Source of the DNA: a virus
Direction: 5' to 3' (one strand)
DNA length: 21,686 nt
IMG/VR virus record: IMGVR_UViG_3300001683_001938
Location: 1-21,686 of that record
Below are positions 2,780-21,686 of this stretch, piece after piece. Every line of letters starts with the position of its first letter. The stretch's first letter is position 1. The translations under genes were made by a program, and so were the position numbers. A model generated the notes under the pieces. The model did no database searches, was not told where the DNA came from, and saw only the letters and a program-made list of their open reading frames with translations.

Positions 2780-5724
2780 TTTACGCCTAAGCTTTTAAAA
2801 TTTCTAACATGCTCTTTCCACTCATCTAGTAGCAAACCTTTAGACCAGAACCTAATTTGAGAAACTTGACCGGAGAAGTTTGTCTCGTTAGCTTTTAGTC
2901 TATCTCCTGTTACAGCACCAGGAGCACTGTTAAGAAGAGGTGCTATGAGAAATCTATTGTAAGCAGTGCCGAAATCGCCGTCTGCACCTGTAGATGAAAC
3001 ATTTGCCATACTTTGTGATCCTATAACCACCATTGACCCAGACGGATTATACGTTGAATCAATTACTTGTAATACATTTCCATTGCTAGTTATGCCACCT
3101 GCGTCTTCTTTAAAAAATGATGAAGTTGTAAATATAGCCCCTATCTTTCCATATGACTGTCTTGCAGCTCTAAGGAAATACGAGCTTGACCCAACAGCAG
3201 ATACTGTATCAACTAGATACTTTCCATAATCTTCTGGAATCACATCATCAGATCTAAATCTTCCAAAGGATATATTCCATAAATTTCCATCAAATACGTT
3301 AACTCCTGTGACCTGTAGCTTTAAAAGAGGATCAATATGACTCTTTGATGTGTTTCCTGGTCTCATATACAGCCTTAAAGTTGAACCACTTGAAGTTAAG
3401 CTATTTTCAGTTCCAGATACTAGCAGTAAGTTTGCATAGTGAACTCCCTTTGTAAGCTCAGACTTTGATCCTGTATTGCTTGCTGATACATGGAGCCTTG
3501 CTAGGCTTTGATATGTTCCATATTTTATACCTGATTTTTTAGGAAACTGATATGTTGCCTCATACGTAAAAGATCCAGATGTTAAGAGTCCATCAGATTT
3601 TGTCTGCGAGATTCCGTGCGGCGGATACAGATTTTTATTAACAAATGATAGAGAACCGCTTGGCTCAGGAAAACCAACTTCAACTCTAGAGCCTGATAGA
3701 AAATTTGAAACTATATGAGGAAAGTTATTTGAAAATCCTTGAGGTGTTAAAGTTCCTGCAGATATAATAGCATTGCTTCCTGAGAAATCTAGAGAGCTTG
3801 CGACCTCAATCTTTGTCTCTCTGCGCCCTGTTAATGATCTTTTAGTTGGTCCGCCATACTCTCTGATTGTCATGAGATTATCTGGGTTTATTCCAGCAGA
3901 TCTTATTAGAGATTTTATACTATGAACTGTTCCTTTTGAAACTTTGATGTCATTGTAATTTAAAAGTATTCGCTTCCATATTTCTGACTGAACGAAATTA
4001 AGAGAGTTTAAAGAAGTTACATATTCTCCTTCGATATCTTCTCCTCTTATAAATTGATCAATCGGAGTATTTTGAAACAAAGCAGGAAGTTCTATTCCAT
4101 AATACTGAGCAACAAACGGAAGTAGCTTTCTAGATACAGACTCCTCGTCGTCATAGCTTACGTGAAGAACTTGTGATAAATGATCAATAAAAATCTTTAT
4201 CTCATCATAAAATTTTGCATACAGTAGCATAAATGCTGTTAAGTTTTGTGCATTGCCTAACTTTGCTGATCCAGGAATTGAATTTCCAGAAATTGCATTT
4301 GGAATCTGGCCATCTTCACTTGCAAATCCCTGGTATGACTGGCCCTCTAATAGATAGTGCGAAGGAAACAGTCTAGTTATAAGGTTTGGATTAACTTTAT
4401 CGTAGTCACTTGCTGATGCTAGCAGTCTTGTATTTAAACTTTTTATCAGATAGAAATCTGGAAATAAAACCGGTGATCTACCTGCTCTCTCTCCATACAC
4501 TGGATTTGAGGGCTCACCAGAAGATCCGGTATCTCTTAGTGATATAGAGTAGTTAGAAACTCTAGAGTGCAATGAATTTCCAGAGCTATCTAATACAACA
4601 TTATTTCCTGAATATGATCCTGATGGTTCGTTAAATCTAAAGTATAGCTTTAAATCATCACTGCTGTATATTATTCTACTTTGATATTTTTTCTGATCAC
4701 TTAGTGTTCTTGTTGAGTGAAAAAGCCTAAATTCATCAATAGATCCTGAAAAAGTTACGTACGAGGTAAATACCCTTCCTGTTGATCCCGCTAGACTTCC
4801 AGCACGGGCGGGCATTGCATTGAAGCTTGATCCAGATCCTATTATAAAATTTGAATTTGAGAAAGACAGACTGTCAAATTGAAAAGATGTTGAAGAAGTT
4901 GCAACTAGTGTCTGACTAAGGAATAGATTAAGATTGTTAGTTGACCCTCTATCATATGTTGCGCATATGTGAGAAAATTTTCCCTTTTCAATAGAGGAGC
5001 TTACTAAAAGCCTAGCTGAGCCTGATGCTATAGAGAAGAGCAAGGGAACAGATGTCAGGCTATCTGACTTTGATAATGCAAGTGTAACACTGCGGGTTTC
5101 GTTGTCGCGCTTTTGGCAAATTATCTGGTTGTTATTTTCTTCAGAAGGGACATAGACTAGCATCTCAATAGAAAATGGATTTTCACCAAAATTTATTATA
5201 GATTTTCCACTTTTGTCTCTAGAGAAATCTGGAAATTCAGATCCAGCACTATCAATTACTGGTATAAATGTTCCAAGTTTTTCAGAGTATCCATTTGAAG
5301 GATTTTCATTCACTGCAGTTCCTGAAAATATTAGATACCCATTATTTTTTGGAAATACATCTAAAATATATTTTTCATATCCTGTTAAGGAATCTTCAAA
5401 TGCTTCGACTTGTTTTCTTGATCCGTCAAAAGGATATTCGTTTATTATTCTGTTAAATGCTACGTTTACTTTTGACTGAGCAGAATTAAAAAATGTATGA
5501 TTTTCAAATTTTTCCCAATCAAGTGATATTTCTTGTGTCGATTTTAATCCAAGGCCTGCATCTTCATACCTAAAAGATGAGGTGCTTAATATATTAGTAT
5601 CACTCAATCCCTTTAGAGATACATCCCTAGTTTCAATATTCGATGTCGATCTTCTAGACTTTGATGGTTGAAACAGGGAAGGCGATTGAGGAATACCTGA
5701 TATTGTTTTTCGGTTCTTAGGCAT
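2701..5724 (-). CDS. Large tail structural protein with two LamG/ConA-like domains
   Basis: This 1007-residue frame starts at ATG 5722-5724. Its ribosome-binding site is weak, and the previous gene ends 12 bases upstream. Residues 85-135 form a helical N-terminal segment (DSLTGYEKYILDVFPKNNGY). Residues of about 175-375 look like a LamG/concanavalin-type beta-sandwich (FSIEMLVYVP, then FSHICATYDRG, then GSIDEFRLFHSTRT). Residues 490-625 form a helical module (FYDEIKIFIDHLSQVL, then EIWKRILLNYNDIKVSKGT) reminiscent of tail-protein-I/baseplate connectors. A second LamG-like region spans about 700-985 and ends in FSGQVSQIRFWSKG. This points to a tail or baseplate protein carrying glycan-binding domains. 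The last 22 or so residues are probably out of frame, with the true C-terminus at 2009-2776 in the -1 frame. Family identity is inferred from domain style. Confidence 0.8.
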   Translation of the reverse strand: MPKNRKTISGIPQSPSLFQPSKSRRSTSNIETRDVSLKGLSDTNILSTSSFRYEDAGLGLKSTQEISLDWEKFENHTFFNSAQSKVNVAFNRIINEYPFDGSRKQVEAFEDSLTGYEKYILDVFPKNNGYLIFSGTAVNENPSNGYSEKLGTFIPVIDSAGSEFPDFSRDKSGKSIINFGENPFSIEMLVYVPSEENNNQIICQKRDNETRSVTLALSKSDSLTSVPLLFSIASGSARLLVSSSIEKGKFSHICATYDRGSTNNLNLFLSQTLVATSSTSFQFDSLSFSNSNFIIGSGSSFNAMPARAGSLAGSTGRVFTSYVTFSGSIDEFRLFHSTRTLSDQKKYQSRIIYSSDDLKLYFRFNEPSGSYSGNNVVLDSSGNSLHSRVSNYSISLRDTGSSGEPSNPVYGERAGRSPVLFPDFYLIKSLNTRLLASASDYDKVNPNLITRLFPSHYLLEGQSYQGFASEDGQIPNAISGNSIPGSAKLGNAQNLTAFMLLYAKFYDEIKIFIDHLSQVLHVSYDDEESVSRKLLPFVAQYYGIELPALFQNTPIDQFIRGEDIEGEYVTSLNSLNFVQSEIWKRILLNYNDIKVSKGTVHSIKSLIRSAGINPDNLMTIREYGGPTKRSLTGRRETKIEVASSLDFSGSNAIISAGTLTPQGFSNNFPHIVSNFLSGSRVEVGFPEPSGSLSFVNKNLYPPHGISQTKSDGLLTSGSFTYEATYQFPKKSGIKYGTYQSLARLHVSASNTGSKSELTKGVHYANLLLVSGTENSLTSSGSTLRLYMRPGNTSKSHIDPLLKLQVTGVNVFDGNLWNISFGRFRSDDVIPEDYGKYLVDTVSAVGSSSYFLRAARQSYGKIGAIFTTSSFFKEDAGGITSNGNVLQVIDSTYNPSGSMVVIGSQSMANVSSTGADGDFGTAYNRFLIAPLLNSAPGAVTGDRLKANETNFSGQVSQIRFWSKGLLLDEWKEHVRNFKSLGVNNPLTLKKQQQDHFKDYVQTGQLTSQ

Positions 5725-12566: not shown

Positions 12567-13297
12567 TATGCTCCCCAGAAAAATATGTCAAAATCTCCAT
12601 CTTTAACGAGCTCTCTATAATGTTTTCTTATTGATGACATTGAAACAGAAAGTTGTTTTGGATTTAAACCAGATAATTCTCTCATGTATATAAATATGGC
12701 TCTCTTGTTCAGTAGGTCAAGATCGTCAATGTTTGTGAATAAAGTTATTATTGATTCTATGCAAGCTTTTTCATTTTCACTTTTTAATCTGCCCTTTATA
12801 ACGTTCATCATTTCAAAAAGACTGTCTCTTGATTCTCTTTTCATAATTTTGAAATCTTGCATAGCTGCTATGCTGTAATTTTCTATAGTTGCTGCGTCTG
12901 AATATGTTAGAGACTGTGTATCATCTATGCTTACAACTCTTCTATTGTTTTTTGTCTTTTTCTTACTTTGTATTATTAGCCAGTTTTTTGCAACGACATT
13001 AAAGTATGAAAATGCTTTTGTTCCCCTAGATGGATCAAACTTATTAAGAGTCTCAAATAGAAAAGAAACACAATCATTTTTCAATATTACATAATCTTCC
13101 TTGCTACTTGCAAATCTGTGTATAAAAATAAGATTTTCAGAAAGTTTGCTAAATGCAGGAAGAATATCTTTAACGTATATCTCGTCTCTTATTTCCTTAT
13201 CTGGTTCATTCTGATATTTTACTATGGCATTATGCGCATCTTTTCCAAAATAAGGTTTTTTTGACCGCTTTCTTCTTTTAATCTTCTTAATCATCAT
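12566..13297 (-). CDS. gp55-like late-transcription sigma factor
   Basis: The product has 243 residues, starting at ATG 13295-13297 with a second ATG next to it. The start overlaps the preceding gene's TGA (ATGA), with GGTGA upstream. The N-terminus is very basic (IKKIKRRKRSKK). Residues 68-118 resemble sigma-70 region 2: helices around FETLNKFDPSRGTKAFSYFN followed by NWLIIQSKKKTK, as in T4 gp55-type factors. Residues 205-231 could be a helix-turn-helix (LSGLNPKQLSVSMSSIRKHY). The extreme C-terminus is acidic-hydrophobic (DGDFDIFFWGA), like the sliding-clamp-binding tail of T4 gp55. It should redirect host RNA polymerase to late promoters for the structural genes. The clamp link is inference. 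Confidence 0.82.
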   Translation of the reverse strand: MMIKKIKRRKRSKKPYFGKDAHNAIVKYQNEPDKEIRDEIYVKDILPAFSKLSENLIFIHRFASSKEDYVILKNDCVSFLFETLNKFDPSRGTKAFSYFNVVAKNWLIIQSKKKTKNNRRVVSIDDTQSLTYSDAATIENYSIAAMQDFKIMKRESRDSLFEMMNVIKGRLKSENEKACIESIITLFTNIDDLDLLNKRAIFIYMRELSGLNPKQLSVSMSSIRKHYRELVKDGDFDIFFWGA

Positions 13298-13611
13298 TGT
13301 AGTTCACCAGTATTTTTTGTATTTTTATTTTCTGACACAGTAGATGTCAGAGTGTTAGCAACTATAAGTAAAGAATCGTAAGATCTTTTAATTTGATTTA
13401 TAACATGTCTAACTTCCACGGAATCAAAAAAAACAGGCGTATTTATAATCTCATTCATCTTGCTATATTCTAAGTCAAGTATATCCAAGCACTTCTCAAT
13501 TGAATCTTGAATCTCTAGGATAATCATTGCGTGCTTTATATTAAAATATATTGACAATGCAAGCAATCCAACAATTATCACAAGAGATAATGAAAGAATA
13601 GTAGTTAACAT
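13294..13611 (-). CDS. Small single-pass membrane protein (105 aa)
   Basis: ATG 13609-13611 lies inside the end of the upstream glycosyltransferase (7-base overlap), and TGA 13294-13296 overlaps the sigma factor's start. Residues of about 2-23 form one strong hydrophobic helix (TTILSLSLVIIVGLLALSIY). The remainder (QDSIEKCLDILDLEYSKMNE onward) is helical and charged, ending in an Asn/Thr/Lys-rich tail, so it is probably N-terminally anchored with a coiled-coil body. I do not recognise a family. It could be a host-membrane-modifying or lysis-accessory protein, but nothing in the sequence decides this. Confidence 0.75.
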   Translation of the reverse strand: MLTTILSLSLVIIVGLLALSIYFNIKHAMIILEIQDSIEKCLDILDLEYSKMNEIINTPVFFDSVEVRHVINQIKRSYDSLLIVANTLTSTVSENKNTKNTGELQ

Positions 13612-14777
13612 GGCCCACCATCTAAAACTTCAGATATCATTTTATTATAAAGTTTAATTATTTCTTTTGAACTAAATCTTTCACGAACACTTTCAGATAA
13701 TTTTGATGCCCACAGCTTTGGAATGTCTGGACTATTTCTAAATTTTTTAATTTTTTTCTTAAAGTCTTTCTCTAGAGGGTCAGCCCATTTAAAACCTTTA
13801 AAAAATATTCTATTATCTATTCTTTGATCTGATATTTCAATAAGTTTATAGTGGATTGGTATAAATTTTCCAAGATTTAAAAAATCTAGATGCGCAGACC
13901 AATTTGTTGCAATAATTGGAAGTCCACAAGCAGATGCTTCAAGAAGCGGAAGGCCAAATCCCTCTCCTCTAGTTAGACTAATTAAACACTTTATATCTTC
14001 TCTTCTATAGAGAGATATTACTTCATCTGATGTTAAGTTTCCATGAACTAGGTGAACTTTTGGAAATTTTCCTTTTCTTACTTCTCCCAATATTGACCTT
14101 AAAGTATTTTTTGTAATAGCCCTGTCTATATGGGTGCCTCTTCCAAAGTTTGTTTTTAAAACAAGTCCAACATCCTTATCATTAGCAAATGACTCACAAA
14201 ACCATTTAATAGTATTAAATAAATTTTTTCTGTCTGTGCTAGGGTCATTACCAGTAAAAGTAGCAACAGAAAGAAAATTAAACGATGTATTTAGATTTAA
14301 ATCTAATGGATCGTCATTTTCAAGAAGAATATTATCATAAAACCACTCACCTATAACAAATATCTTAGTTGTTACATTTCCTGAATTTAGACATGTTTGT
14401 CTGATATGATTCGAGGGAACTATGACAGCATCCATTTTATTTATAGCACTGATCCAGCCTTCATTACACTTATCAGTCTCTACAACTGCAGAGATTCCTA
14501 TGTTAATCTTAGCAAGGTTATGGTCCCATTCGTCGGGAAGTTGAACCTGAAATGAAATATCTGCCTTTTGTGATAATTCCACAGACGTATTCATTATTCT
14601 TTGAACAATTCCGTCTTCTAAATCTGTATTTATCATCCAACTAGTGTTTCCCCACTGGACTATCTGTGAAATTATATTAATATCTTTTCTAGACTCGAGC
14701 CACTTGAAAATCTGTCTCGAGTGGACACCATATCCGCTTATTGATAAAAGCGGAGCTCTAATAACAACATTCTTCAT
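13605..14777 (-). CDS. Family-4 (GT-B) glycosyltransferase, first of two
   Basis: This gene codes for 390 residues from ATG 14775-14777, preceded by a perfect AGGAGGT (14786-14792), to TAA 13605-13607. The N-terminal Rossmann-like half begins VVIRAPLLSISGYGVHSRQI. The nucleotide-sugar half has FLSVATFTGNDPSTDRKN (about 168-184), KTNFGRG (208-214) and the GT4 EX7E motif TRGEGFGLPLLEASACGLPI (269-288; E272 and E280). These mark a retaining GT-B glycosyltransferase that uses a nucleotide sugar. No signal peptide or membrane helix is visible, so it would act in the cytoplasm. Donor and acceptor cannot be read from the sequence. It sits next to another GT4 and downstream of the sugar-activation genes. 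Confidence 0.87.
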   Translation of the reverse strand: MKNVVIRAPLLSISGYGVHSRQIFKWLESRKDINIISQIVQWGNTSWMINTDLEDGIVQRIMNTSVELSQKADISFQVQLPDEWDHNLAKINIGISAVVETDKCNEGWISAINKMDAVIVPSNHIRQTCLNSGNVTTKIFVIGEWFYDNILLENDDPLDLNLNTSFNFLSVATFTGNDPSTDRKNLFNTIKWFCESFANDKDVGLVLKTNFGRGTHIDRAITKNTLRSILGEVRKGKFPKVHLVHGNLTSDEVISLYRREDIKCLISLTRGEGFGLPLLEASACGLPIIATNWSAHLDFLNLGKFIPIHYKLIEISDQRIDNRIFFKGFKWADPLEKDFKKKIKKFRNSPDIPKLWASKLSESVRERFSSKEIIKLYNKMISEVLDGGPC

Positions 14778-14785
14778 TCAAGTAT

Positions 14786-14792
14786 ACCTCCT
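14786..14792 (-). promoter_or_regulatory. Perfect Shine-Dalgarno before the first GT4 gene
   Basis: AGGAGGT on the minus strand overlaps the upstream gene's TAG stop (14791-14793) and lies 8 bases before ATG 14777. It is the best-matching ribosome-binding site in the window. Confidence 0.75.
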
Positions 14793-16038
14793 AGATAGTG
14801 TAGGTTTCCCATCTTTTGTATGTGTCTTTCCACGTTCTTGAAACATTCAGTAAAGATTCATGCCACTCAGACACTACATCTTTATAATCAAACTCTGAAG
14901 AGACATAATTTCTAACTTTTTTGCTTAGCTCATCTTTTTCATTTTTGGGAATTTTGTAAAATTTAAAAAGTGCGTCAGCTATAGACTCTGGTGTCGCATA
15001 ATCCTCAAATATGTAAGGGACTGACTGAGATCCAACAAGTGACCTGCAATCGATATCGATGGCAACTCCGTTCTCAGATCCATCCCTATGATCTACTACT
15101 TGCCTAGTGAGGCCTCCAGTCTTCACTGCCACTATAGGGCGGCCTGCTTGCATAGACTCTAGGGTAGATAATCCAAAACCCTCTGCATAAGATATATTTA
15201 AGCAAAAATCTGATATGTTATACAGAATATTCATTTTATCAAATTCAATCCTATCTCTAGAAAAGAAAATATTTTCATGTATACCTAGCATCTCAGATGT
15301 TACAGTAAGATTGGGACCCTCCTGATCCATGGGATCAGTATGCATTATAAGCGTGGCCTTTCTATGCCCTTTCTCTTTTTCAAGCTTGTCAAGAAGAAGT
15401 TTCCATGCAAACAAAACATCATTTGGTCTTTTTCTTTTTGCATTTCTATTAACCCATATTCCAACCATGTGATCATGAGTATCTTTTCCTAAAATGTTAG
15501 CTCTCTGAGATATTCTGTCTTCTTCAGATAGTGGAAAAAATATATTATCAGGAACTGAGTGTGGTATAAATTTTACTTTTTCACCGAGCTTGTCCTTTAA
15601 CATCTCATATGTTAAGTATGAGTGGCAATTTATAGCATCTGTTGAATTATAAAGAGCTTCGTTAAACTTTGGATATGGGTAATTATCCCAGACATGCCAC
15701 CAGACAATTGGGCATATCTGATGAATCTCATCTTCCATTTCAAAAAGCCATATAAAAAATCTAGGGTCAGTAAAGATAAAAAGCAGATCTGGTTTTTCAG
15801 TTGCTAGAGCCACTCTTAGCATATCTCTATTTCCAAATCCGTCTATTGGCTTGATTATAAAGTCTTCATTGACAACTATTGTATCATAATCACTGTGCTT
15901 TAGAGCTGCTCCAAACTGCCTAAATGACCAGTGATCGTTCTTTTCTAAAAGACCCATTATAAGATGTCTTGTCTGAGTTCCCACTCCCGAAGTTGAAAGT
16001 GCATGATCTGACAGTACAAGAATTTTCTTTTTCTTCAT
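14791..16038 (-). CDS. Family-4 (GT-B) glycosyltransferase, second
   Basis: A 415-residue protein starts at ATG 16036-16038; a GAGG lies 12 bases upstream, so the ribosome-binding site is weak. Residues 5-30 form the N-terminal Rossmann start (KILVLSDHALSTSGVGTQTR), with a Gly-rich loop like other GT4 enzymes. Residues 193-208 (GIWVNRNAKRKRPNDVL) carry the basic phosphate-binding pattern. The EX7E motif is at 286-294 (YAEGFGLSTLESMQAGRPIV). It is a cytoplasmic retaining glycosyltransferase with unknown donor and acceptor. It differs clearly from the following 390-residue GT4 and is not a recent duplicate. A -10-like TATAAT at 16067-16072 lies in the preceding 55-base spacer. Confidence 0.87.
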   Translation of the reverse strand: MKKKKILVLSDHALSTSGVGTQTRHLIMGLLEKNDHWSFRQFGAALKHSDYDTIVVNEDFIIKPIDGFGNRDMLRVALATEKPDLLFIFTDPRFFIWLFEMEDEIHQICPIVWWHVWDNYPYPKFNEALYNSTDAINCHSYLTYEMLKDKLGEKVKFIPHSVPDNIFFPLSEEDRISQRANILGKDTHDHMVGIWVNRNAKRKRPNDVLFAWKLLLDKLEKEKGHRKATLIMHTDPMDQEGPNLTVTSEMLGIHENIFFSRDRIEFDKMNILYNISDFCLNISYAEGFGLSTLESMQAGRPIVAVKTGGLTRQVVDHRDGSENGVAIDIDCRSLVGSQSVPYIFEDYATPESIADALFKFYKIPKNEKDELSKKVRNYVSSEFDYKDVVSEWHESLLNVSRTWKDTYKRWETYTI

Positions 16039-16066
16039 ATTCTATAAAAACCTCGGCAATGAGAAT

Positions 16067-16093
16067 ATTATACTTATTTTATAGAGCAGTAAA
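16067..16093 (-). promoter_or_regulatory. Possible promoter upstream of the GT4 pair
   Basis: On the minus strand, TTTACT (16088-16093) is followed after 15 bases by TATAAT (16067-16072), 28 bases before ATG 16038. The -10 box is perfect. The -35 box is only fair and the spacing is short. A TATAAAATA near-match to a late-type TATAAATA box lies between them. Confidence 0.35.
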
Positions 16094-16930
16094 TTAAGTA
16101 CAGTGCTCTGTGTCTTTAAATTGACAATATCTGCAAGAGTCTCTATTTTTAAGAAACATTCCTCTCCTAACAGAGTAAATCATACTATTCATTATCTTTG
16201 TTGCTTTTTCTAGTGCCTTAGGCCCTACAGATACTGTAACAAGCTCACAGACCCTGCCTGGCTTACCCCCGCGCTTTAATAGTATAAAACCACACCTTAT
16301 GTCTTTAAGTTCAACAGAGTGCTTCCTAGACCAAAATAGCTTGTATAGTATAAGCTGTGCAGTCATTGAAATATCTTGCTTTTTTGATCTTCTCCACCCA
16401 TAAGACTGCGACGTCTTCCAGTCAATAATCCAATACTTGTGACCGTCTCCTTCCTTGTTTGGAACTTTTATTATGCCATCTATGTATCCTTTAAAGTTTA
16501 GATCTTTATTTTCAATAGGCTCATAAAGCATCTCTTCAGCATCAACATATTCCCATCCTGGAAATGTCTCATCTAAAAATTTTGGAACTTCATCCCACAT
16601 ATTTTCTGCCCATTGGCACCATTCTTCAACAGGCGCGTGTTTGTACCACTTGGGCATTTTCTCATACCATTCAGGCTCTCCAAAACCGTGTTGATCCCAT
16701 GCTTCTATAACACCTTTAAGAATCTTTTCTTGATTAACTGTTTTTGTCTTAAGTAGTGATTCACACCCTTCATGAACTGCAGTTCCGAAGTCTAGATACG
16801 GTGATGGCTCAAAGGTATCTATTTTTTCAATATGAGCTAGCTTGTGCCTATAAGAGCACTCTTTCCAGCATTTTATCTCTGAAAAAGATACGTGCTTTTT
16901 TCCTGTAGGGAAATTATTTTCTTCTTTCAT
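16094..16930 (-). CDS. PD-(D/E)XK nuclease with Fe-S-type cysteines (RecB/Cas4-like fold)
   Basis: The gene codes for 278 residues from ATG 16928-16930 to TAA 16094-16096. The PD-(D/E)XK core is visible: FGTAVHE (48-54, H53), YIDGI (149-153, D151), the metal-binding IIDWKTS (168-174, D170 and K172), then AQLILYK (191-197, Q192). Cysteines at 21 or 25 and at 266, 269 and 277 are placed like the 4Fe-4S ligands of Cas4/AddB-type nucleases. The likely role is DNA end processing, recombination or repair during phage replication. No helicase or CRISPR genes accompany it. The start has no Shine-Dalgarno but sits just after an extended -10 element, so the message may be leaderless. Confidence 0.85.
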   Translation of the reverse strand: MKEENNFPTGKKHVSFSEIKCWKECSYRHKLAHIEKIDTFEPSPYLDFGTAVHEGCESLLKTKTVNQEKILKGVIEAWDQHGFGEPEWYEKMPKWYKHAPVEEWCQWAENMWDEVPKFLDETFPGWEYVDAEEMLYEPIENKDLNFKGYIDGIIKVPNKEGDGHKYWIIDWKTSQSYGWRRSKKQDISMTAQLILYKLFWSRKHSVELKDIRCGFILLKRGGKPGRVCELVTVSVGPKALEKATKIMNSMIYSVRRGMFLKNRDSCRYCQFKDTEHCT

Positions 16931-16936
16931 AAAATT

Positions 16937-16945
16937 ATTATACCA
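16937..16945 (-). promoter_or_regulatory. Extended -10 promoter element directly before the nuclease gene
   Basis: TGG plus TATAAT (an extended -10) lies at 16937-16945 on the minus strand. Only 6 bases separate it from ATG 16930, so transcription would begin at or beside the start codon. No ribosome-binding site is present. A TTTACA at 16954-16959 is too close (11 bases) to act as a normal -35 box. Confidence 0.5.
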
Positions 16946-16962
16946 TAGAATATTGTAAAGTA

Positions 16963-17817
16963 TTAATCTGAAGCCTTATCAGTTACAGCACCCGGAATAT
17001 CATACCAATCTAAATTTGTTCTTACTTCAGCATTCTTTTCCCAAGCACCTTTCATAACTGAAGGTTTTATTCCTAGCTTCTCTGCTTTTTTAATCATTGC
17101 ATTCAGATCCTTCGGAAAACACTTTCCTCCGAAACCAAAATCACCATCGTGACCAGGAACATCTATGTGAGAGTTTCCAATCCTACCATCAGAAATAAAT
17201 CCATCAACTGCGCTATCCCAATTTCCATCAATAGCATCGCATATCTGTCTCATCTCATTCATAAAAGAAACCTTAGTAGCGAAAAAACAGTTCGCCATGT
17301 ATTTAATAAGTTGTGCTGTTCCGAAATCAGTTTTAATAATTTTAGTATACGGAAATCTCTCTCTGTATAAGTTTTCAACTACATCACAGGCCCTAGTTTT
17401 ATTGCTTCCTAAAACTATCCTAGATGTATTTATAAAGTCTAACCTAGCCTTTCTTTCAGTTAAAAATTCAGGATTAAATACAAAATTCATTTCTGGGTAT
17501 TTAGATGCTAATCCCTCTAGTGTTCCTGGAACCACAGTAGACTTTACTACAATTACCTTATTGTAAATCTCAGAATAACAAGATAGCTCTTTAACAACTT
17601 TCTCAACTATTGAAAGATCACACTCGCCTGATTCAAACATTGGAGTAGGTACACAGATAAATATTACATTAGAGTTATTTGCAATATCTTGCATTGAGTG
17701 AGTTGATCTTTTTGGATCTTTATCATATATTAAAATATCTTCGACGTGTAGAATAAATCCATGTAAAATAGCAGAGCCTACAAATCCATTTCCAATTATT
17801 CCAATTTTACTGTTCAT
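16963..17817 (-). CDS. Short UDP-glucose/GDP-mannose dehydrogenase-family enzyme
   Basis: The product has 284 residues. The start is ATG 17815-17817 with AAGGA 5 bases upstream, 11 bases inside the end of the GT2 gene. Family motifs in order are GNGFVG (9-14, NAD-binding), CVPTP (55-59), STVVPGT (93-99), NPEFLTE (115-121), LIKYMAN (160-166, K162) and the catalytic-Cys motif GFGGKCFPKD (228-237, C233). Such enzymes oxidise a nucleotide sugar's C6 alcohol to a uronic acid in two NAD-dependent steps. Full-length family members have about 390-450 residues. This one stops shortly after the helix following the catalytic Cys and lacks the C-terminal substrate-binding domain. Its substrate is therefore uncertain, although all visible catalytic residues are kept. 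Confidence 0.85.
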   Translation of the reverse strand: MNSKIGIIGNGFVGSAILHGFILHVEDILIYDKDPKRSTHSMQDIANNSNVIFICVPTPMFESGECDLSIVEKVVKELSCYSEIYNKVIVVKSTVVPGTLEGLASKYPEMNFVFNPEFLTERKARLDFINTSRIVLGSNKTRACDVVENLYRERFPYTKIIKTDFGTAQLIKYMANCFFATKVSFMNEMRQICDAIDGNWDSAVDGFISDGRIGNSHIDVPGHDGDFGFGGKCFPKDLNAMIKKAEKLGIKPSVMKGAWEKNAEVRTNLDWYDIPGAVTDKASD

Positions 17818-18463
17818 CTTTTTCCTTATCTTTAAGCATGCTGTTATATCTCTCTAGCTCTTGAGTATTTTTAGTTCTATTTGATTCATGAACCCTATAT
17901 CGATATAGTGACATAGGAAGGTGAAATAAGCTAAATTTCTTTAAAAATCTTTCAATTAAATCATGACCCTCTCTCATTTTATAGTTTTCATCGTAAAAGT
18001 TTATCTCGCATAAAGACTCATATGTAAACATTGCGCCACATGCTATTGGATCATCTCTTGAAGAGCACTCTTCTGATAAGACTCCTACCTCATTTACTTT
18101 AGAGTAATCACAAGCTATTCCCTGATAATTTCTATTCATATCTAAAAATAGAGATAGACAGTTTAAAAAATGCTTTGAAACATAATCATCACTATCAACT
18201 CTTATAAAATATCTACCTCTTGCTATTCTAAGAATTTTATTTAAAGAAGACGGTAGTCCTATATTTTCTCTATTGTTTATAAGTCGTATATTGAGATCAC
18301 CCTCCATATTATTACAAATATCTTCTATAGACGACCCTGGCTCATCGTTAACTATGACAACTTCAAACTGGCTCTTGTCTAGTGTTTGACTTGCAAGACT
18401 TCTTAGACATCTATAAAGCCACTTTTTCTGTTTAAAACAACAAACTCCTACAGTAACTTTCAT
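17807..18463 (-). CDS. Family-2 (GT-A) glycosyltransferase
   Basis: A complete frame of 218 residues starts at ATG 18461-18463 and ends inside the next gene's start (11-base overlap). The GT-A fold is clear: the N-terminal strand VGVCCFKQKKWLYRCLRSLA, the nucleotide-binding VIVNDEP (36-42) and the metal-binding GRYFIRVDSDDYV (83-95). The later GHDLIERFLKKF carries the usual acidic-base region. GT2 enzymes are inverting transferases that use nucleotide sugars. At 218 residues it is a minimal single domain without a membrane anchor. Its place after the methyltransferase and NeuA-like genes suggests it extends the same glycan; the donor sugar is unknown. Confidence 0.85.
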   Translation of the reverse strand: MKVTVGVCCFKQKKWLYRCLRSLASQTLDKSQFEVVIVNDEPGSSIEDICNNMEGDLNIRLINNRENIGLPSSLNKILRIARGRYFIRVDSDDYVSKHFLNCLSLFLDMNRNYQGIACDYSKVNEVGVLSEECSSRDDPIACGAMFTYESLCEINFYDENYKMREGHDLIERFLKKFSLFHLPMSLYRYRVHESNRTKNTQELERYNSMLKDKEKDEQ

Positions 18464-18466
18464 AAT

Positions 18467-19132
18467 CTATAGTAATTCCTTTTCAAAAATTAAATCCATG
18501 CTATTTCTCCAAAATGGAAACTTTACATTAAATCCTAAAAGCTTAGTAACAAACATTATATGATCTTTTACTGGATTTGAATATGGCGATCTAATATACG
18601 GATATCTTTTATCAATTAATCTAAATCCATAATTTTTCATAGCATTTTCAATCCACTTATCATTTGGAATATAGTAATTTGTTTTCGGATAATCTAAAAA
18701 AGGAAGTGTAGACCAAATTTTAAAATATATGCTATTTGTATTTGGAGTTGCAAGAAAAGCTACCTTTCCACCTTTCTTCAAAGAAGAGTGACATTGTTTC
18801 ATATATAAGAAAGGCTCATCTATGTGTTGAATTGTGCCTCGAAATACTATTAGATCAAAAAAGTTCTCTGAATTGAATATATCCTTTGAAAACTTTACAC
18901 CATGATTTTTTGCCTGTGTTTTTGCAAATTCTGAAATCTCCATGCCATAGCAATCTCCGGCCCAGTTAAATGACTTTACCATCTCTCCCGTTGAGCATCC
19001 TACGTCTAACAGATTTCCTCTTCTAATGTGATTTTTAATAAACTTACATTCAGACTTAAAGCAAGCAACTCGCTTATCATCATTTAAAAATCTTCCTTTG
19101 AAATACTCCTCATTAAAAACAATATCGCTCAT
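18467..19132 (-). CDS. Class I SAM-dependent methyltransferase
   Basis: The gene codes for 221 residues from ATG 19130-19132, whose ATGA overlaps the dehydrogenase's stop. Motif I is LLDVGCSTGEMV (41-52), the acidic post-I strand is CYGMEIS (61-67), the region-III start is FDLIVFRGTIQHIDEP (92-107), and LKKGGKVAFLATP (118-130) is typical of the UbiE/Methyltransf_11-23 group. Such enzymes methylate small molecules or sugars. In this run of sugar genes a sugar O- or N-methylation is the likely job, but the substrate is not given by the motifs. The C-terminal ~80 residues are less conserved and probably bind substrate. Confidence 0.85.
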   Translation of the reverse strand: MSDIVFNEEYFKGRFLNDDKRVACFKSECKFIKNHIRRGNLLDVGCSTGEMVKSFNWAGDCYGMEISEFAKTQAKNHGVKFSKDIFNSENFFDLIVFRGTIQHIDEPFLYMKQCHSSLKKGGKVAFLATPNTNSIYFKIWSTLPFLDYPKTNYYIPNDKWIENAMKNYGFRLIDKRYPYIRSPYSNPVKDHIMFVTKLLGFNVKFPFWRNSMDLIFEKELL

Positions 19133-20052
19133 TTCGTAAATTTTCCTAGATTACTTGCAAGCCTTAAAGAAGACACAAATGCTTTTGTCTGACTTTCCTT
19201 TGTCGCACCTGCCACATGAGGTGTAATAACTACTCTATCACTTGTTTTTGAAAGAGCCAGTATTGGAGATCTCATTAATTTTGAAATTTCTTGCTCTCCG
19301 GATAGCACGTCTGTTCCATAGAATATTTTTCTATTTTTGATAAGATTTACTATATGATTTTCATTTACAACTTCGCCTCTAGAAGTGTTTACAACAAAGG
19401 AACCTATTTTAATATCTTCCCATACTCCAGCAGTTATCATTTCAAAAGTCTCATTACTTAGAGAGCAATTAATTGAAACTATATCGCAATTTGAAATAGA
19501 GTCCAAGCATTCTAGCTTAGTAAAATTATTATTTTCAACATAGGGATCGTAAAAATAAACCTTTAGCCCAAATGCTTTTGCATAGTTTGCAATTTTTGAT
19601 CCTATCCTGCCAAGACCAACTATTCCTATTGATTTTCCATAAAGCTCATTTGATCTAAGATGTAGCTCATTAGACTCAGATCTCCATTCATCTACATTGC
19701 TTACAGCAGAGGTAAACTTTCTTACAAGATTCATGATATGAATCCATGTAAATTCAGCAGATGCGTGAATATCTTCAAGAGAAGCCCTGTCTTCAAGAAG
19801 ACAAGTAGTCTTTATCCCTCTTTTTTCAAGATCTACTTTATCAATATGGTTTGTTCCAGTAGAGGGCGTAGATACAACTTTAAGATTTTTATAATTTCTA
19901 AAGTGACTCCAGCCAAGATACTTTGACGTACCTGGATTTACTAAAACAACCTCTGGATCATTATCTGAAATTGTTGCACATTGTTTTTTTAAGATTTGAT
20001 CAATCTCATGCTGAGATAGAAAATTTAACGGACATTCTATTCTAACTCTCAC
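19129..20052 (-). CDS. D-isomer-specific 2-hydroxyacid dehydrogenase (SerA-like)
   Basis: The product has 307 residues from GTG 20050-20052, chosen for its AAGGAA site at 20060-20065 and its one-base overlap with the NeuA-like gene (TAGTG). The N-terminal substrate domain has STGTNHID (64-71). The NAD-binding fold is at SIGIVGLGRIGSKIA (141-155). The catalytic triad appears as R225 (NTSRGEV), E253/E255 and H279 (ITPHVAGATKES). Family members reduce 2-oxo acids or oxidise D-2-hydroxyacids with NAD(P). It lacks the C-terminal regulatory domain of bacterial SerA. Inside a NeuA/NeuB-type run, it may make a hydroxyacid for a sugar substituent or precursor, but this is inference. Confidence 0.85.
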   Translation of the reverse strand: MRVRIECPLNFLSQHEIDQILKKQCATISDNDPEVVLVNPGTSKYLGWSHFRNYKNLKVVSTPSTGTNHIDKVDLEKRGIKTTCLLEDRASLEDIHASAEFTWIHIMNLVRKFTSAVSNVDEWRSESNELHLRSNELYGKSIGIVGLGRIGSKIANYAKAFGLKVYFYDPYVENNNFTKLECLDSISNCDIVSINCSLSNETFEMITAGVWEDIKIGSFVVNTSRGEVVNENHIVNLIKNRKIFYGTDVLSGEQEISKLMRSPILALSKTSDRVVITPHVAGATKESQTKAFVSSLRLASNLGKFTK

Positions 20053-20750
20053 TATACTATTCCTTGCATTATAGCTCTTGCAGTTACAAGATCTATCATT
20101 GAATCAATATTTACAGACTCTAGTTCACCCATAACATAGGGTCTTGATACTTCTCCGTTTCTAGAAAACCTTTCTACTATACAATCCCTTGTCATTGCAT
20201 AAATTGCACCATTTCTAATATAACAAGGTTCTAAATCTTGACGCCTGGATCCTTCACCCTCTGGATGATTTTCACAAAAGTCTTTAATTGTATCATCTAC
20301 AATTCTCTTCATTCTAACAGGGTGCTTATCTTGCATTTGACATACAGATATTACGCTATCTGCGCCTGTTTCTAAAATCTTATTATACGCTTCTCGTACA
20401 TGAACTCCATTTCTTAGTGGAGATACACATGGAAGCTCTACTACATAGTCATATGTTTTATTAAAAATTTTCTCACATTCCAAAACAGCATGCTTTAAAG
20501 CGTCCCTGGACCAGACATGATCTTCTGCTAGGTGATCAGGTCTCATAAATGGCACAAGAGCTCCGTGAGACTTAGAAATTTTAGCAATTTCATTACAATC
20601 TGTGCTAACAACTATTTCATCAAACACACCGCTATCAATAGCTGCCTTAATCGTGTAGTATATAAGAGGATTACCGTTTAGGTCTATTATGTTTTTTCTA
20701 GGTATTCCCTTTGACCCTCCTCTTGCTAAAATAACAGCCAGGTTTTTCAT
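20052..20750 (-). CDS. neuA-like: CMP-nonulosonic acid (acylneuraminate) cytidylyltransferase, NeuA-like
   Basis: This 232-residue protein starts at ATG 20748-20750, coupled to the NeuB-like gene by ATGA, with GGGGGA upstream. It has the family signature LARGGSKGIPRKN (8-20, CTP-binding), VSTDC (48-52), LPCVSPLRN (106-114), YIRNGAIYAM (177-186) and the C-terminal SVNIDSMIDLVTARAIM (202-218) with metal-binding Asp. It should use CTP to activate a nonulosonic acid (sialic, legionaminic or related) to its CMP form. At this size it is a bare catalytic domain. Its coupling to a NeuB-type gene makes a working CMP-sugar pair likely in an intact relative. Confidence 0.88.
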   Translation of the reverse strand: MKNLAVILARGGSKGIPRKNIIDLNGNPLIYYTIKAAIDSGVFDEIVVSTDCNEIAKISKSHGALVPFMRPDHLAEDHVWSRDALKHAVLECEKIFNKTYDYVVELPCVSPLRNGVHVREAYNKILETGADSVISVCQMQDKHPVRMKRIVDDTIKDFCENHPEGEGSRRQDLEPCYIRNGAIYAMTRDCIVERFSRNGEVSRPYVMGELESVNIDSMIDLVTARAIMQGIV

Positions 20751-21355
20751 AAAAATATTCCCCCGCTGTCTCTAGCAACACTAATCTGATTTCCTATATT
20801 TCTTAAAGTTCTTAGCTCTTCTAGATTCATAGATCCTATGTGATCATTACCATCTAGTGATTTGTCTAGTGTAAAATGTTTTTCAATATACCTGGCTCCC
20901 ATTGCAATATGATAGAGGCAGTTACTAATTCCATATGAATGGTCACTTAGTCCTACAATCTTATCTGAATATTTTTTACTAACTGAGCATTTTTGATCAA
21001 GTATTCCTGTGGGATATTTTGAAACACAGTTAAAATACATGACATTGTCTGACGTGAATGGAAGCGAGTTACTTTTCCAAAATCCCAAAGATACAAATGT
21101 AGGCTTTCCAGTGTTAATAATTTTACTACACAGGGCTTCCTCTTTTACTACTGTTCTACTAGCTATCTTTAAAAGATTTACGCCTAGATCAATACACCAA
21201 TCTAGCTTTTCTTCATCAAAAACAGATGCAAAAAATTCTATGCCATAAGCATCACATATTGATAAAATAGTAGACACTTGATCATAAGTAAATTCATTTT
21301 TTGATCTTGATGAATCACCGAAAACTCTTTGAGAATCGTATAGCTGCACCACCAA
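20747..21355 (-). CDS. neuB-like: NeuB-like synthase, main fragment downstream of a frame break
   Basis: The frame codes for about 200 real residues of a nonulosonic-acid synthase (NeuB) TIM barrel, ending at TGA 20747-20749. Family marks are FFASVFDEEKLDW, LLKIASRTVVKEE, GKPTFVSLG, VGLSDHSYG and YIEKHFTLDKSLDGNDHIGS. Reading starts at a TTG (21353-21355), which I regard as artificial: the true N-terminus, with the EIGINHNGD motif, is in another frame at 21315-21443. The enzyme would condense phosphoenolpyruvate with an N-acetylated hexose derivative. No C-terminal SAF/antifreeze-like domain is present, so even rebuilt (about 237 residues) it is shorter than the usual 330-350. As read, the gene is broken. 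Confidence 0.75.
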   Translation of the reverse strand: MVVQLYDSQRVFGDSSRSKNEFTYDQVSTILSICDAYGIEFFASVFDEEKLDWCIDLGVNLLKIASRTVVKEEALCSKIINTGKPTFVSLGFWKSNSLPFTSDNVMYFNCVSKYPTGILDQKCSVSKKYSDKIVGLSDHSYGISNCLYHIAMGARYIEKHFTLDKSLDGNDHIGSMNLEELRTLRNIGNQISVARDSGGIFL

Positions 21356-21443
21356 TTGCAGATTGTCTTATAAGCTCTTCAATTTTTCTAAAATCTCCGT
21401 TGTGATTTATTCCAATCTCAGATATAATTTTAAGTGTGCTCAT
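21315..21443 (-). CDS. neuB-like: N-terminal NeuB-like fragment, in frame to a premature TGA (42 aa)
   Basis: ATG 21441-21443 follows GGAAG by 6 bases, a good ribosome-binding site. The fragment reads MSTLKIISEIGINHNGDFRK and onward to SAIGGA, the canonical NeuB N-terminus in which Glu-x-Gly-x-Asn-His-Asn-Gly lines the active site. It then runs into nonsense and stops at TGA 21315-21317. The expected next motif, GAD-x-x-K-x-Q, is missing its middle; the other frame resumes at VQLYDSQRVF. The two halves therefore belong to one gene with an out-of-frame loss near 21344-21354. Confidence 0.8.
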   Translation of the reverse strand: MSTLKIISEIGINHNGDFRKIEELIRQSAIGGAAIRFSKSFR

Positions 21444-21500: not shown

Positions 21501-21508
21501 GTACAAGG

Positions 21509-21686
21509 CTAATTGATGAGTTTCGCTATTTTCTTATCTATTAGAGTTAGTGATACCTTATTAAGAATTTCTATATCAATATTTGATATATTTGATATGT
21601 CAATTAAATCTAGCATTCCGTCACTGTAGTTTAGTATCCACTTAACTGCTTTGTGATCTAGAGAGTTGAATTTTTGACCTCCAAAA
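21509..21686 (-). CDS. C-terminal 58 codons of an upstream gene, cut by the window edge
   Basis: An open frame enters from the right edge in the second base (first full codon TTT at 21683-21685) and ends at TAG 21509-21511. It reads FGGQKFNSLDHKAVKWILNY, then SDGMLDLIDISNISN and LIDKKIAKLIN. The Trp-x-Leu-Asn-x-Ser-Asp-Gly pattern followed by a helical pair resembles the C-terminal winged-helix region of DUF4910-type proteins, which occur in surface-sugar clusters. That match is from memory of the pattern and is tentative. Confidence 0.6.
   Translation of the reverse strand, partial: FGGQKFNSLDHKAVKWILNYSDGMLDLIDISNISNIDIEILNKVSLTLIDKKIAKLIN

Follow-up and report, generated by a model that had tools for sequence, protein, structure and literature searches.

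The NeuB family (PF03102) comprises the sialic, legionaminic and pseudaminic acid synthases; Glu25 and Gln55 are listed among the NeuB active-site residues (PMC6795526). In tailed phages, clusters of lipopolysaccharide (LPS) or other surface-sugar genes have been described in the T4-like cyanophages P-SSM2 and S-SSM7, and the authors left open whether the cyanophage LPS genes are functional or represent ‘stuffer DNA’ (PMC3037559). The locus analyzed here resembles these systems as a sugar-gene cluster in a large tailed-phage genome. It encodes a NeuB, a cytidylyltransferase, a hydroxyacid dehydrogenase, a GT2 glycosyltransferase and a nucleotide-sugar dehydrogenase, with one of these genes being broken.

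The IMG/VR virus record (the whole stretch of DNA analyzed, hereafter the window) is linear and 21,686 bases long. Its minus strand carries tail and baseplate genes (with baseplate wedge matches), two GT4-type glycosyltransferases and a gene with a PD-(D/E)XK-type exonuclease match. The sugar cluster consists of a nucleotide-sugar dehydrogenase, a GT2 glycosyltransferase, a methyltransferase, a D-2-hydroxyacid dehydrogenase and a cytidylyltransferase, followed by NeuB close to the contig end. The methyltransferase gene (18467-19132), which separates the hydroxyacid dehydrogenase gene from the GT2 gene, is unmatched in the relatives L002-L012. The features at and around NeuB are the following:

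19129..20052, minus strand: intact D-2-hydroxyacid dehydrogenase (PF02826), in the same cluster as NeuB
20052..20750, minus strand: intact cytidylyltransferase, NeuA-like (PF02348), with a 4-base overlap with the NeuB stop
20747..21355, minus strand: C-terminal NeuB frame, QLYDS onward, 202 codons; the TTG at 21355 is a mechanical ORF start only
21344..21353, minus strand: junction GGTGGTGCAG, without 17 bases that all intact relatives have
21315..21443, minus strand: N-terminal NeuB fragment, 42 codons plus stop, covering strand 1 (with SEIGIN) as well as helix 1 and followed by the short out-of-frame tail AIRFSKSFR
21505..21686 (approximate), minus strand: C-terminal piece of the gene upstream of NeuB, truncated by the contig end, resembling the end of a DUF4910/HTH_47 protein

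A DUF4910/HTH_47 protein precedes the intact NeuB in L006 and L007. The ATG at 21443 starts the N-terminal NeuB frame MSTLKIISEIGINHNGDFRKIEELIRQSAIGGA, which runs into AIRFSKSFR and stops at 21315; VQLYDS and the subsequent residues are read in another frame past GGTGGTGCAG (21353-21344, minus strand) up to a stop at 20747. A preliminary description of this DNA had reported a NeuB-like gene split across two frames at 21344-21353, and both the coordinates and the family assignment are correct. With an intact relative as query, tblastn returned two pieces in different frames, with residues 1-30 aligning to 21434-21345 and residues 36-226 to 21346-20765. The N-terminal piece is 97% identical to L004 across 30 residues and the C-terminal piece about 61-68% identical to eight relatives over about 190 residues, so the two-frame match is far beyond chance. 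The C-terminal part matches PF03102 with an E-value of 4e-35 (121.9 bits against a cut-off of 22.1; profile positions 49-236).

Intact relatives were gathered by searching viral contigs with the C-terminal part of NeuB and with the neighboring cytidylyltransferase, yielding eight distinct sequences (L002, L003, L004/L005, L006, L007, L008, L009, and L010/L011). All eight carry the motif G-[GK]-[AS]-D-[FYL]-[AV]-K-F-Q-L-Y, and in each of them exactly 17 extra bases are present at the junction: from the GGA(GCA) codon (Ala/Ser) to the Leu codon following Gln there are 18 bases in the relatives versus 1 in the window. The proposed loss of 17 bases, with 17 mod 3 = 2 accounting for the frame offset, is thus borne out, and the relatives reveal no loss of another size class. 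The preliminary description was also right that residues are missing, but they number five (D-F/Y/L-A/V-K-F, between GGA and QLYDS) rather than four. The Val of VQLYDS, which had been taken as original, is really an out-of-frame reading of GGTG.

In a wider scan, 72 out of 73 distinct homologues are uninterrupted and the window copy is the sole interrupted one. None of the 72 is in frame without the GADxxKxQ segment, as had been anticipated. The window NeuB does have the N-terminal (S/A)EIGxNHxG strand with the active-site Glu, albeit in a separate N-terminal frame. It lacks the Lys of the in-frame K-x-Q motif of strand 2, which is present in 72/72 intact homologues, and it has no single open reading frame across the barrel. 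In contrast to other members of PF03102, the window copy is frame-broken, and on these sequence features it is best described as a broken member of the family and not an active NeuB. At the nucleotide level, blastn against 50,697 phage records gave no DNA match, and the intact NeuB protein found relatives among these same records at 26-30% identity only. A search for alleles in which 1-30 bases separate the two window flanks returned nothing from a collection that may omit the window's own and near records. The best bacterial match of the phage NeuB is an Omnitrophota MAG (44% identity), with others at about 27-33%.

The window copy and its relatives form a phage NeuB subfamily (20747-21443 in the window) of about 228-238 aa that stops at the end of the barrel and, compared to full-length NeuB, lacks the C-terminal antifreeze-like domain. 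No PHROGs family matches this subfamily at E ≤ 0.001. The intact phage relative matches PDB entries 6ncs, 1vli, 8h2c, and 1xuu by both sequence and fold. An AlphaFold model of the intact L006 NeuB (mean pLDDT 84) folds as a barrel of eight strands, with residues 32-37 as strand 2, and among crystal structures it matches NeuB, PseI, and SpsE best. The residues lost in the window fall in this strand. Aligned to Neisseria NeuB, the lost Lys corresponds to position 53 and the Gln after it to position 55; the window equivalents of Glu25 and Gln55 sit in different frames. Neither fragment can make up a complete barrel.

The neighboring sugar genes (cytidylyltransferase, hydroxyacid dehydrogenase, GT2, and nucleotide-sugar dehydrogenase) have homologues in the phage contigs L002-L011. 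In the nearest relative (L006:612-13730), the sugar-acid run includes a DAHP/KDO8P-type synthase, a second cytidylyltransferase, an HpcH/HpaI aldolase, an FkbM methyltransferase, the DUF4910/HTH_47 protein, and NeuB, together with a cytidylyltransferase, a hydroxyacid dehydrogenase, a GT2 glycosyltransferase, two nucleotide-sugar dehydrogenases, and an epimerase. In L017, the gene immediately following the short NeuB (3684-5456) encodes a 590-aa protein that, as judged by eye, seems to join a second and longer NeuB, which includes an antifreeze-like region, to a cytidylyltransferase. This apparent fusion replaces the usual separate cytidylyltransferase gene.

We consider it rather probable that a recent 17-base deletion, arisen at little or no homology, has struck this phage-borne neuB and left no active enzyme. 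The gene affected is the NeuB gene of a phage cluster for acidic-sugar (nonulosonate-like) biosynthesis. In the sequence as it stands, the loss shifts the frame, takes out the conserved Lys and its neighbors in strand 2, parts the SEIGIN strand from the remainder of the barrel and spares the adjoining cluster genes. The deletion presumably originated by replication slippage or end-joining that used scant homology (CAG/CAG at most) or none. Both fragments would then be inactive as enzymes, and the virus would either have lost the sugar or need the host, or another NeuB copy, to carry out this step. Within the 21.7-kb window there is no second NeuB that could serve as backup, and related contigs encode a single NeuB in 14 out of 15 cases and two in one. 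Such an event would resemble the small frameshifting deletions known to arise by slippage or end-joining where homology is short or absent, given that 17 bases are lost and that any microhomology would span 0-3 bases. What the break region looked like before the loss has to be inferred, because the C-terminal part of the nearest relatives is only about 61-68% identical in protein.

Several observations bear on the age of the break. Among the 81 positions of the C-terminal part that are invariant in the other eight sequences, 80 are retained and one is changed, and mismatches of the N-terminal part to the relatives are mostly at third codon positions. Both halves of NeuB thus look fully constrained. 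The C-terminal frame has no stop in roughly 200 codons; in a neutral simulation, the chance of this was 14% when divergence was set to 5% and 2.4% when it was set to 10%, which argues for a recent break. We also considered prolonged decay, which would show as accelerated evolution of NeuB along the window's branch, and rejected it: the NeuB/NeuA divergence ratios of 1.78 (against L006) and 1.56 (against L007) are no different from those of intact pairs, which span 1.09-2.13. Given the constraint on both halves and the intact neighboring genes of the cluster, the sequence points to a loss that is either very recent or a sequencing or assembly artefact.

It is accordingly quite possible, if less probable than a recent deletion, that the 17-base gap reflects an error of assembly, amplification or reads in the metagenome contig and that neuB is intact in the virus itself. 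The undisturbed coding signature in both halves fits such an error equally well, the window copy is the sole broken one among the 73 homologues, and about 340 bases separate the break from the end of the contig, a region in which assemblies are presumably often weaker. However, a typical read error affects a single base, unlike a 17-base loss, and a k-mer assembly would not collapse repeats of ≤3 bases. Moreover, the genes at 13294-20750 show no frame breaks when aligned to relatives (where relatives exist), so the contig is not generally error-ridden.

The remaining readings are far less plausible. It seems highly improbable that the break is a standing polymorphism of the phage population, with selection switching off a phage-made nonulosonic-type sugar in some hosts via on/off loss of neuB. 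We regard it as very doubtful that neuB works as it is, by a programmed +1 frameshift or by internal re-initiation at TTG or GTG. The two frames do overlap at the junction, and both codons occur there in the C-terminal frame, but neither mechanism can restore the strand-2 residues or the Lys common to 72/72 intact homologues. In addition, the TTG has no clear ribosome-binding site close upstream, unlike the ATG at 21443 (GGAAG), and this organization is found in no relative. A deletion between two 7-base GGTGCAG direct repeats, as proposed in the preliminary description, is scarcely credible: the 17-base length would fit and one GGTGCAG copy is found at the junction, but the second copy requires Lys-Val-Gln with a Val codon (GTG) before Gln, which is very unlikely since the residue preceding this invariant Gln in the 72 intact homologues is Phe in 70, Ile in one, Leu in one and Val in none (K-F-Q, K-I-Q, and K-L-Q, respectively, and never K-V-Q).

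For a recent deletion, the sequence allows at most a 3-base CAG microhomology, which would require CAG as the lost Gln codon. The Gln codon at the junction is CAG in four and CAA in four of the eight close relatives, and window-wide there are 78 CAG versus 88 CAA codons. A microhomology of at least 3 bases was found in about 4-9% of random 17-base deletions placed in the relatives, so CAG would be weak evidence for a mechanism.

If the deletion is real, the phage NeuB is dead and the CMP-sugar pathway would be blocked unless this step is provided by the host or by another copy. Biologically, the lesion is ordinary: either a phage auxiliary gene has suffered one more small inactivating deletion, giving a recent null allele, or the break is an artefact. 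Of more interest than the lesion is the conserved phage sugar-acid cluster with its short, barrel-only NeuB. Essentially all relatives sampled keep this short NeuB unbroken and under constraint, which argues that such clusters are functional rather than stuffer DNA, the question left open for the cyanophages (PMC3037559).
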